Assembly: GCF_009664085.1 (NCBI RefSeq) | Contig: NZ_CP039268.1 | Location: 729,501-793,500 of the forward strand | Length of the DNA: 64,000 nucleotides | DNA from: Thermochromatium tepidum ATCC 43061 | GTDB lineage: Bacteria > Pseudomonadota > Gammaproteobacteria > Chromatiales > Chromatiaceae | Direction of reading: 5' to 3' | Shown: in pieces, positions 2,414 through 39,065 of the stretch | How the letters are laid out: each line of letters begins with the position of its first letter | How positions within the stretch are numbered: the stretch's first letter is position 1 | Translations under genes and position numbers: made by a program | The notes under the pieces: generated by a model | Database searches by the model: none | The model's input: the letters and a program-made list of their open reading frames with translations, nothing else | What the model was told of the DNA's origin: nothing

Positions 2414-3508
2414 TCAGGGCGCCCCCAGGCCAATCCCAGCCACCGGGGTTCGGCAGTCCGGACAGACGCCGTTGCGGATCCGGTTCTCTAAGAGTTGAAA
2501 ACCATGACGGCGGATGAGTCGCGCGCCACAGCCAGGGCAGTAGGTGTCCTCGCCGCCGCCGGGCAGATTGCCGACATAGACATACCGCAAACCAGCCTCC
2601 AGGCCGATCCTGGCGGCGCGTCTCAGGGTCGCTGCAGGCGTTGGGGGGGTATCGGTCATGGAATAAGCCCCATGGAACCGCGAGACATGCCAGGGGATAT
2701 CGGGCGAGAGTGAATAGATGAAGTGTGCGATGTCACGCAGTTCCTCGTCGGAGTCGTTGATGCCAGGAATCACCAGGGTTGTGATCTCGATCCAGACCCC
2801 GAGCGCATGATAGCGCGTGATGGCATCGAGCACCGGTTGGAGCCGGATGCGGCTGAGATGACGATAGCTCTGGTCGCGGAAGAACTTAAGATCCACATTG
2901 GCTGCATCCAGCACCTTGGCCAGTTCGCGCTGTGGGGCCTCGTCGATATAGCCGTTGGTGACGAAGAGATTGAGCAATCCGGCTTGGCGGGCGAGACAGG
3001 CCGTCTCATAGGCCAACTCATAGAAGATCGTTGGCTCGGTATAGGTGTAAGCGATGGAGACTGCCCCGGACGCCTGGGCTGCGCTCAGGATCTGCGCTGG
3101 CGTCACTGGCTCGCCCGGCACGCGGTCGCCGAGTCGCGCCAGTTGGGGACAGAGTGGAGTCTCCTGTGTCGCTAGGGTCTCGCCAGAGTCCAGATGTTTG
3201 GGCAGACACTCGCGCGGCCACTGCGAGATCTGCCAGTTCTGACAGAACTCACAGCGTAGATTGCAACCGACCGTGGCGATCGAATAGGTGCTCGAACCTG
3301 GATACACATGGAACAGCGGCTTCTTTTCGATCGGATCCAGGCAGCGCGAAACGACCCGATCGGCCACCAGTGTGAAGAGCTCGCCCTGACTGTTGTAGCG
3401 CACGGCGCAGACACCGCGTCCGCCATTGGGAATGATGCAGTCGTGTGGACAGAGTCGGCACCGGACGCGCTTGGCGTCAAGCAGGTCGTAAAAGCGTGCT
3501 GCCTTCAT
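2414..3508 (-). CDS. amrS: AmmeMemoRadiSam-system radical SAM protein (AmrS/PflA-like)
   Basis: A 364-residue radical SAM enzyme with the cluster motif G-C-N-L-R-C-E-F-C (Cys82, Cys86, Cys89). It also has extra N-terminal cysteines (C-R-L-C-P-H-D-C, then G-V-C) and a C-terminal zinc-ribbon-like C-P-G-C / C-P-D-C pair, as in the family that usually accompanies AMMECR1 and MEMO proteins. Those partners are not in the window. The open frame extends upstream to 3640, but that extension lies inside the left end of an IS605-type element and is an artefact. The ATG at 3508 begins the family-typical N-terminus M-K-A-A-R-F-Y and has GGAGG four bases upstream, supplied by the element. The chemical reaction is not established from sequence. 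Confidence 0.82.
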   Translation of the reverse strand: MKAARFYDLLDAKRVRCRLCPHDCIIPNGGRGVCAVRYNSQGELFTLVADRVVSRCLDPIEKKPLFHVYPGSSTYSIATVGCNLRCEFCQNWQISQWPRECLPKHLDSGETLATQETPLCPQLARLGDRVPGEPVTPAQILSAAQASGAVSIAYTYTEPTIFYELAYETACLARQAGLLNLFVTNGYIDEAPQRELAKVLDAANVDLKFFRDQSYRHLSRIRLQPVLDAITRYHALGVWIEITTLVIPGINDSDEELRDIAHFIYSLSPDIPWHVSRFHGAYSMTDTPPTPAATLRRAARIGLEAGLRYVYVGNLPGGGEDTYCPGCGARLIRRHGFQLLENRIRNGVCPDCRTPVAGIGLGAP

Positions 3509-3517
3509 AGACCCTCC
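3509..3517 (-). promoter_or_regulatory. Ribosome-binding site for amrS supplied by the transposon left end
   Basis: On the minus strand the bases read GGAGGGTCT and are followed directly by ATGAA. The GGAGG lies four bases before the ATG, a slightly short but workable spacing. The nine bases are the first nine of the IS605-type element and recur unchanged upstream of tadA (38541-38549). The SD therefore belongs to the mobile element rather than to amrS. Confidence 0.65.
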
Positions 3518-3526
3518 GCAAGGAAA

Positions 3527-3546
3527 CCCGCGACTTGAGTCGCGGG
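3527..3546 (+). repeat. Left-end hairpin of the IS605-type element
   Basis: A perfect palindrome with a 9-bp potential stem lies 18 bases inside the left boundary. In the family such hairpins are bound by the TnpA dimer on single-stranded DNA. Read on the minus strand it also lies in the new 5' leader of amrS, just upstream of the SD, where it could fold in the mRNA. Confidence 0.75.
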
Positions 3547-3581
3547 AGGAATGGCGGGTGCGCGAAGCGCGCCATGTGGTG

Positions 3582-3587
3582 TATAAT
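3582..3587 (+). promoter_or_regulatory. Perfect -10 box (TATAAT) for tnpA
   Basis: TATAAT ends seven bases before the A of the tnpA ATG at 3595. A transcript starting at the usual distance would begin at or next to the start codon, giving a nearly leaderless mRNA. No convincing -35 box is seen in the GC-rich 17 bases upstream. Expected to be weak. Confidence 0.4.
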
Positions 3588-3594
3588 ACACCGC

Positions 3595-4008
3595 ATGGTT
3601 GACATAGTAACCAACAGGAACTGCGTCTATCAAACGGCATACCATGTGATCTGGTGTCCGAAGTATCGGCGAGATGTACTGACGGGACTGGTGGCAGAGG
3701 AAATGGGGGCGATGCTGGATGCGATTTGCGCGGAGCGCGGCTGGCCGATGATCTCCAAAGAGATTCAGCCCGACCACGTTCACCTGTTTGTCAGCATCCC
3801 GCCTGCCATTGCTGTGGCCGATGCCGTAAAAATCCTGAAAGGGACAACGGCGCGCAAGCTGTTTCAGCGGTTTCCGTGGCTCAAGAACCGCCTTTTGGAC
3901 GGGCATCTGTGGTCGCCCTCCTACTATGTCGGCACGGCAGGTAACGTCAGCGCCGAGACGATCCGGCGCTACATCGAACGATCCGAACACGTCACCAAGC
4001 GGCGATAA
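3595..4008 (+). CDS. tnpA: IS200/IS605-family Y1 transposase TnpA
   Basis: A 137-residue HUH single-strand transposase. The metal-binding H-V-H (His61, His63) lies in D-H-V-H-L-F, and the likely nucleophile is Tyr126 in R-R-Y-I-E-R. Length is normal for a Y1 transposase. The frame is open back to 3535, but the residues before the ATG at 3595 are translated left-end hairpin sequence, so 3595 is preferred. In the family TnpA excises and reinserts single-stranded DNA at a short specific target without target duplication. It is followed three bases later by tnpB. Confidence 0.92.
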   Translation: MVDIVTNRNCVYQTAYHVIWCPKYRRDVLTGLVAEEMGAMLDAICAERGWPMISKEIQPDHVHLFVSIPPAIAVADAVKILKGTTARKLFQRFPWLKNRLLDGHLWSPSYYVGTAGNVSAETIRRYIERSEHVTKRR

Positions 4009-4011
4009 CCC

Positions 4012-5157
4012 ATGCTGCGCACCGCCTCGATTCGCCTGAATGTTCGCCCGGACCAAGTGGCGGCCTTGGGGGCTCTGCAATCGGCTTATGCCGATGCCTG
4101 CAACCGCTTGGTGCCGACGGTGATCGAACATCGCTGCTGGAACCGCGTGGCGCTGCACCAGTTGGCCTATGCCCGGCTGCGCGAGGAAACACCGCTGGGC
4201 TCGCAAATGGTCTGCAACGCCATCTTCTCGGTCTGTAAGTCCTACAAGGCGCAAAAGGAACTCGGTCGCATCAAGAAGGACGAGCCCGCACCTGTAGTGC
4301 ACTTCGACCGCGCCAGTGTCCATTTCGACAAGCGAACATACTCCATCAAAGGGGAGTGCCTGAGTCTCTACACCCTTTCTGGCCGCATCGCCGTCCCGAT
4401 GGTGCTGGGCGAGCATCAGCGCCGCATCATGGCCTCGGGCAAGGCCAAAGAAGCCGAGTTGGTTTGTCGCAAGGGTCGCTGGTATTTCAACCTCGTCGTC
4501 GAGTCCGACGATGCGGACCCCATTGCATCCAGCCCCGTCATGGGCGTGGATGTCGGAGAAAACAATCTCGCTGCCACCAGCACGGGCAAGGTATGGGGCG
4601 GCGGGCAACTGCGCCACAAGCGCAACTGCCACCTTGCCCTTCGTCGTCGTTTGCAGTCCAACGGCAGCCAAAGCGCCAAACAGAAGCTGCGGCAGGTCTC
4701 TGGCAAAGAGCGGCGACGTGTGACGCACATCAACCACGAAACGAGCAAAGCGATCGTTGCCGAAGCGCGGCGCATTGGTGCTTCCAAGATCGTGATGGAA
4801 GACTTGTGCCATATCCGCGACCGCATCCGGGCTGGCAAGCGCGTGAGAGCGAGACTGCATCGCTGGGCTTTCCGGCAACTTCAGACCTTTGTCGAATACA
4901 AGGGTAAGGCTGCCGGAATCGCGGTCGAATACGTCAATCCGGCCTACACCAGCCAGACGTGTTCTTGCTGCGGGGCGTTGGGTCGGCGCGTCAAGCATCG
5001 TTTCGTGTGCGACAAGTGTGGTCTCCGGGCGCACGCCGACTGTAACGCCAGTCGAAACCTGGCCCGGATTGGCAGTGGAGCCCCGCTGCCAAGGGCGGCT
5101 GTAAACACGCCCAATGTTGGGGATGCGGTCAACCATGTTTGCTGCGTCTTACAATAA
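4012..5157 (+). CDS. tnpB: RNA-guided nuclease TnpB of the IS605-type element
   Basis: The 381-residue protein has a complete RuvC-like site: Asp180 in V-M-G-V-D-V-G, Glu263 in V-M-E-D-L, and Asp343 in H-A-D-C-N-A-S. A zinc ribbon (Cys317, Cys320, Cys333, Cys336) lies between the last two. No frameshift is present. TnpB proteins cut DNA next to a short motif equal to the left-end target, guided by an RNA whose scaffold overlaps the tnpB 3' end and right end. They thereby keep the element at the donor site. Here that motif would be TTCAT. The last ~45 residues are encoded by the region expected to form the guide scaffold. Confidence 0.9.
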   Translation: MLRTASIRLNVRPDQVAALGALQSAYADACNRLVPTVIEHRCWNRVALHQLAYARLREETPLGSQMVCNAIFSVCKSYKAQKELGRIKKDEPAPVVHFDRASVHFDKRTYSIKGECLSLYTLSGRIAVPMVLGEHQRRIMASGKAKEAELVCRKGRWYFNLVVESDDADPIASSPVMGVDVGENNLAATSTGKVWGGGQLRHKRNCHLALRRRLQSNGSQSAKQKLRQVSGKERRRVTHINHETSKAIVAEARRIGASKIVMEDLCHIRDRIRAGKRVRARLHRWAFRQLQTFVEYKGKAAGIAVEYVNPAYTSQTCSCCGALGRRVKHRFVCDKCGLRAHADCNASRNLARIGSGAPLPRAAVNTPNVGDAVNHVCCVLQ

Positions 5158-5187
5158 AGCCTTCGACTTCAGTCGAGGGTTGTTTAC
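5015..5187 (+). ncRNA. Predicted guide-RNA (omegaRNA) scaffold of TnpB
   Basis: In characterised IS605-type elements the TnpB guide RNA covers the tnpB 3' end plus the right end and continues into flanking DNA as the guide. This interval is the stretch retained in the internally deleted copy at 38296-38468, which supports functional importance beyond protein coding. It contains the right-end hairpin at 5160-5179. The guide here would begin at 5188 (CCGTGATCGGTA...). The 5' boundary is not known and was set by the conserved block only. Confidence 0.4.
5160..5179 (+). repeat. Right-end hairpin of the IS605-type element
   Basis: CCTTCGACTTCAGTCGAGGG folds into a 9-bp stem with one G-T pair, eight bases before the right boundary. 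The same hairpin occurs in the second copy at 38304-38323 in the opposite orientation. Confidence 0.7.

Positions 5188-38295: not shown

Positions 38296-39065
<770 letters not shown>

Follow-up and report, generated by a model that had tools for sequence, protein, structure and literature searches.

An insertion element in the 64-kb window of the Thermochromatium tepidum genome analysed here ends exactly at the start codon of an amrS-type gene, which raises the questions of what brought it to that codon and whether the Shine–Dalgarno (SD)-like motif in its left end now serves the gene. A sequence-only reading of this DNA had placed the left boundary directly 3′ of TTCAT, the complement of the amrS start, and the sequence confirms that junction (Table 1). 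On the forward strand, TTCAT is followed by AGACCCTCCGCAAGGAAA and then by the hairpin CCCGCGACTTGAGTCGCGGG; read outward, the left end consists of the hairpin, TTTCCTTGC, GGAGG, GTCT and ATGAA. The amrS product belongs to the AmmeMemoRadiSam radical SAM family, as judged by its profile match, and the abutting ATG is its first codon. We consider it likely that a target complementary to the start codon, together with purifying selection, places these elements, and that the SD was exapted and makes such sites tolerable.

The element has the hallmarks of the IS200/IS605 family: genes for a Y1 (HUH) transposase and for the accessory RNA-guided nuclease TnpB and, across 42 copies in the host genome, subterminal hairpins, constant end points and a left flank of NTCAT. 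There is no target duplication, as the joint at tadA matches the sequence of relatives. The mechanical open reading frame of tnpA spans 3535–4008, with the ATG at 3595 as its putative start. At 3577–3597, a TATAAT lies inside the palindrome GGTGTATAATACACC, a few bases 5′ of this ATG, and its position suggests that tnpA may be leaderless or have a very short leader. A search of the whole window gave no Rfam gathering match to HEARO RNA. Like ISDra2 and IS608, the element has a Y1 TnpA, TnpB and subterminal hairpins, and it inserts on the 3′ side of a short target that is not duplicated. However, those use TTGAT or TTAC (excerpts of PMC8612924), whereas with TTCAT the outward flank reads ATGAA and so provides a start codon, and many of the copies here are core-deleted. 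By analogy with ISDra2 (same excerpts), TTCAT may also act as the TAM of TnpB.

The same arrangement had been noted at tadA. The junction there is indeed identical, with the parts in the same order up to the ATG, but the copy is a core-deleted derivative of 254 bp, which the sequence-only reading had not mentioned. It keeps the left and right ends and lacks the transposase, as PATE/MITE derivatives do, and a consensus scan found no outward promoter in it. The PATEs of Haloquadratum walsbyi are likewise non-autonomous IS605 derivatives with near-terminal palindromes, in which loss of the core has left ends of some 50 bp; they differ in that no link to start codons is made, the term 'start codon' being absent from the available part of the text (PMC3119063).

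Table 1. Features of the two element junctions in the 64-kb window.
Feature	Position	Strand	Evidence or remark
amrS-type radical SAM gene, ATG adjoining element	2414–3508	−	TIGR04337, 6.2e-100; same start codon position in relatives
TTCAT, expected TnpA target and TnpB TAM	3504–3508	+	Reverse complement of ATGAA, the amrS start
Full-length IS200/IS605 element, 1679 bp	3509–5187	+	Ends from alignment of copies
GTCT spacer, SD-like motif to amrS ATG	3509–3512	−	4 nt
GGAGG, outward SD-like motif of left end	3513–3517	−	Leader pairing energy −10.0 kcal/mol
Subterminal hairpin of left end	3527–3546		CCCGCGACTTGAGTCGCGGG
tnpA, Y1 transposase	3595–4008	+	PF01797, 3.5e-39
tnpB, guided TnpB family	4012–5157	+	NF040570, 8.5e-55, above cut-off; PF07282, PF01385
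Right end with short hairpin (5163–5176)	5163–5187	+	Last bases GTTTAC
Core-deleted, non-autonomous copy, 254 bp (PATE/MITE-like)	38296–38549	−	
Left-end hairpin of tadA copy	38512–38531		Also terminator-like on + strand
GGAGG of tadA copy's left end	38541–38545	+	4 nt 5′ of tadA ATG
tadA, ATG adjoining element	38550–39065	+	NF008113, 1.7e-63

The host genome is one contig of 2,958,290 bases. Searching it with a 27-base left-end pattern that omits the target bases, at up to three mismatches, gave 41 left ends, and one more diverged copy brought the total to 42; the same pattern read backwards had no match in the genome, and a left-end match at 807976 with six mismatches was excluded for want of a right end. 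All 42 copies have a right end (five are 1679 bp long, 36 are 254 or 260 bp and one is 117 bp), and all carry GGAGGGTCT, read outward, directly before ATGA. The outward pentamer is ATGAA in 39, ATGAC in two and ATGAT in one, so that the expectation of TTCAT at every copy holds for 39, the other three having NTCAT. Single-strand transposition by Y1 would insert the left end directly 3′ of TTCAT, which would explain why the outward left end always lies exactly 5′ of ATGA(A). Among 210 genomes of the order, the exact left-end pattern is limited to the host, suggesting that the element may have reached this genome recently. A check for lagging-strand bias of insertion gave 19/42 (p = 0.64), with the replichores inferred from ori and ter positions guessed from sampled skew. 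The copies at 2706695 and 2810859 have near-identical outward flanks and differing inner flanks, hinting at another repeat adjoining them. Three copies away from gene starts (182844, 277263 and 2467962) lie, by eye, directly after terminator-like hairpins whose T-run supplies TTCAT.

We rebuilt the empty sites by joining the flanks and called genes over 529,781 bases, mostly around copies, with a home-made codon-hexamer finder that was run once with an SD term and once without it plus a 60-nt tolerance. Without the SD term, 17 of the 42 copies lie at called starts, compared with 52 of 822 background ATGAA sites (Fisher's exact test, 1.7e-9); with it, the counts are 14/42 and 40/822, and the union of both runs gives 19/42. 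Called coding sequence contains 2/42 copies versus 638/822 background sites (without the SD term, sites less than 30 nt from a gene end not being counted as inside) or 8/42 versus 666/822 (with the SD term). The proposed excess at gene starts therefore stands against all ATGAA sites, but is modest outside coding sequence, where starts account for 17/40 copies versus 52/184 background sites without the SD term (odds ratio 1.9, p = 0.09) and, outside coding interiors, for 14/34 versus 40/156 with it (p = 0.09); in the host, about 28% of non-coding ATGAA sites coincide with a called start codon. Thus, the target motif and the loss of disruptive insertions cover most, perhaps all, of the start excess of the IS605 family. 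Insertions within genes would mostly be lost, leaving survivors at gene starts or elsewhere between genes. The sequence-only reading had held that random positions of other copies relative to genes would speak against it; this applies in part, as 23 to 28 of the 42 copies, depending on the finder, are off called starts. The finder files some true starts as intergenic (profile searches identified HPr at L460, IHF-β at L459 and TsaB at L486, all at ends of the second class described below).

Genes that profiles could name among the 19 sites include obgE, recB, rnfE, pal, tadA and those for a copper ATPase, an exopolyphosphatase and a phosphogluconate dehydrogenase. For ObgE, RecB, RnfE and TadA, the matches begin at residues 1–9, at the matching start of the profile; those for msrB (2943119) and pal (662686) lie far from the N terminus. 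The ATG abutting an element is very likely a functional start.

What the left end offers these genes is a strong SD at an unusual distance. The element leader pairs with the anti-SD at −10.0 kcal/mol, compared with a median of −4.4 kcal/mol for 343 native ATG leaders, only 3.2% of which are as strong; these energies use the standard anti-SD sequence, the host's own 16S 3′ end not having been found by pattern. At 15 of 17 start cases, the element leader pairs better than the leader it displaced. SD-like motifs occur in 8/17 displaced (joined) flanks versus 18/52 background starts. The GGAGG-to-ATG spacing is 4 nt, as against a native mode of 6–7, and spacing 4 is rare among natives (1 of 20 GGAGG leaders in the 343 native ATG genes). 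The claim that the element replaces the leader and supplies an SD is thus upheld for pairing strength, whereas the spacing falls short of native practice. In longer RNA folds predicted for both window junctions, the basal stem of the hairpin would take up the leading GG of GGAGG, and the bases that follow would pair with the open reading frame. Insertion at a start would shift the native leader 117–1679 bp upstream and put the hairpin, GGAGG and 4-nt spacer in its place, from which tadA, obgE and other genes would still be translated; we infer that host genes use the donated SD.

Relatives offer element-free sites for comparison. In four genomes of the same genus (L323–L326), tadA begins with GTG at the matching position after a guaA-like end, with no element. 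We located amrS in six of seven other genomes of the genus: two (L342 and L339) have no element and native leaders, gcgggagggccacgac and gggagggtcaaacc, in which GGGAGGG is present; two (L343 and L344) are element-free with other leaders; and two (L340 and L341) carry the end of a different element, IscB/HEARO, at the same codon (GGGGTTTCTCGCGGAGGAACTG). Both tadA and amrS in relatives therefore lack the IS605 element, with the start codon position unchanged. The sequence-only reading had held that empty sites with a pre-existing GGAGG leader would speak against it; the sites are empty at the same codon, but this objection applies in part, two amrS sites already having GGGAGGG leaders. An SD would thus have been replaced, not newly invented, even though the host's own displaced amrS flank has none. 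An amrS homologue (39% identical, genome G008) also has a decayed IscB/HEARO end. Our survey of 80 TnpA relatives covered the upstream regions of 25 and the left ends at seven loci (L091–L096 and L102).

The IscB/HEARO elements of relatives belong to another class of RNA-guided nuclease than the window element, yet have the same geometry: at amrS and other starts, they match HEARO and adjoin ATGA. Of 204 genomes in the family, 13 have a version of the end with a 9-nt linker, and a looser pattern gave 145 matches in 15 chosen genomes, with contexts for 141 distinct ends. HEARO RNA (RF02033) was matched seven times in six of the nine loci scanned, and the IscB domains RRXRR (PF14239) and HNH were found in L487, the single locus scanned for them. 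The search patterns require ATG, leaving only the fourth base informative; it gives ATGA in 137/141 and ATGG in four. Viral contigs were set aside, as the at least 120 stretches matching a 14-base pattern were judged to be mostly chance.

A regular expression on the linker splits these ends into type 2a, with linker CGCAAGACTG, no SD (−2.7 kcal/mol) and an intact length of about 1700 or 470 bp, and type 2b, mostly with linker CGGAGGAACTG (exactly so in 23 of 32 intact ends) and an intact length of about 397 bp; L439 and L461 (GGAT and GGGG) were filed as 2a, whereas L371 and four linkers with GGAAG went to 2b. Leaving out ends cut by contig borders (24/75 of 2a, 2/66 of 2b), intact ends lie at called starts in 17/32 cases for 2a and 21/32 for 2b (p = 0.45). 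A native leader can therefore be lost without a replacement SD and, since intact ends reach starts at similar rates with and without an SD, the SD does not account for start-codon placement. Outside coding sequence, the shares are 17/30 (2a) and 21/29 (2b), compared with 206/794 ATGA sites in the sample from the host genome (p = 5e-4 and 4e-7); ATGA starts in the same flanks outside coding sequence number 105/731, a region in which the finder misses genes. This enrichment above non-coding background means that purifying selection alone is not a full explanation for HEARO.

Many of the genes that follow these ends are again housekeeping genes. Type 2b ends precede SurE, malate synthase G, ACP, HPr, IHF-β and PyrH, and type 2a ends precede SurE (in a different genome from the 2b case) and TsaB (twice), with profile matches from residues 1–6; of ten chosen proteins, nine match in this way and PheS (L421) from residue 52 only. 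What can still be recognized of the element end before malate synthase G, PyrH and HPr is a stretch of some 40 nt or nothing beyond the pattern itself. IscB/HEARO ends likewise adjoin housekeeping start codons in related genomes at L446, L455, L416 and other loci. Decayed HEARO-like ends lie at called starts in 21/32 cases for 2b, with an SD, versus 6/19 for 2a, without one (Fisher's exact test, p = 0.023), in a post hoc contrast made with the home-made finder, and the remnants include ends for which BLAST showed no similarity outside the pattern (2a, L401 and L497; 2b, L422, L397, L460, L457 and L412). Seven 2b ends are core-deleted to 43–46 bp, and all seven lie at called starts with GGAG, two of them sharing a protein start across two genomes; they read GTCAACTA, hairpin, TTTCTCGC, GGAG.. 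and then ATG (L433, L440, L427, L435, L437, L451 and L454). The Haloquadratum PATEs have comparable core deletions (PMC3119063). A check by eye for selective retention of left ends in genome G103 found that 8 of 25 left ends lack a right end that fits the pattern, although at least two of the eight have one under a looser pattern, and that 3 of 20 right ends lack a left end.

How the SD relates to this distribution can be read in several ways. It is rather doubtful that target composition and the loss of gene-disrupting copies alone determine placement, with the SD having no effect on survival. The start share of the IS605 family outside coding sequence (p = 0.09) and the similar frequency of 2a and 2b ends at starts are what this would give, but HEARO ends exceed the non-coding background, and tadA and obgE, which are essential genes, have lost their native leaders and must still be translated. 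We regard as unlikely the opposite extreme, in which the SD is an adaptation of the element, evolved or kept since insertions at starts become harmless and lineages with an SD survive better. Such an adaptation would fit the six left ends of an Acidiferrobacter metagenome-assembled genome (G210), whose linkers have diverged and which show outward GAGG or GGAGG in five cases and GGGG in one, the GAGG of a Nitrospirae genome (G211) and of a Methylococcaceae locus (L102), the uniform linkers of intact 2b ends, the decayed ends and the seven core-deleted ones. However, GAGG is absent from Sutterella (three linker types in five copies) and from Neisseriaceae relatives, intact 2a and 2b ends do not differ significantly in start share, and the contrast among decayed ends is post hoc and includes some known by a 14-base pattern alone.

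A closer competitor, to which we give a little less than even weight, is that GGAGG is conserved for its part in the DNA fold that the left end adopts during transposition, the linker pairing with bases 3′ of the hairpin, and that its likeness to an SD is incidental. Top-strand DNA folds are predicted to enclose the hairpin in a basal stem (CCGC/GCGG). In G210, GAGG or GGGG is kept while other linker bases vary, several ATTCCTC linkers could pair with a GAGGAAT that follows the hairpin, and in one copy (L311) both partners have changed, to ATTCCCC and GGGGAAT. Each Sutterella linker fits the sequence on its own 3′ side (GACGCAA/TTGCGTC and GCCGCAA/TTGCGGC). Against this, the sequences are few, the complementarity was read by eye and two G210 linkers match over four bases only. 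Two of the six G210 left ends (L311, L314, L316, L318, L320 and L321), namely L314 and L318, adjoin long start-like open reading frames. We favour placement by the target and purifying selection, with GGAGG as an exapted by-product of the left end that would not be the cause of the distribution. Of the earlier suggestion that insertions are tolerable and possibly selectable, tolerability probably holds, whereas selection for them was not borne out.

HEARO is said, in work by Weinberg from 2009, to adjoin ATGA or GTGA; in the relatives studied here, it is often at gene starts, and one subfamily carries GGAGG. Few HEARO nucleases adjoin TnpA (excerpts of PMC9755519). Among the open-licence PMC titles and abstract openings listed, none describes an SD supplied to a start codon by the end of an IS200/IS605 or HEARO element, and none matches TTCAT with TnpB and TAM. 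Tentatively, and with some leaning against it, TnpB-type IS605 and IscB/HEARO elements might be regarded as portable 5′ leaders in Chromatiaceae-like genomes, which land repeatedly at start codons (at amrS, by two unrelated classes), replace housekeeping ribosome-binding sites and, in some cases, have shrunk to a 46-bp hairpin and GGAGG kept as a ribosome-binding site. The finding links the target or TAM of RNA-guided transposon systems to where such elements can live: a target complementary to the start codon may make gene starts a refuge, in which the end of the element rewrites a translation signal of the host. The sister HEARO families, with and without an SD in related genomes, offer a natural experiment on how much a native leader matters.
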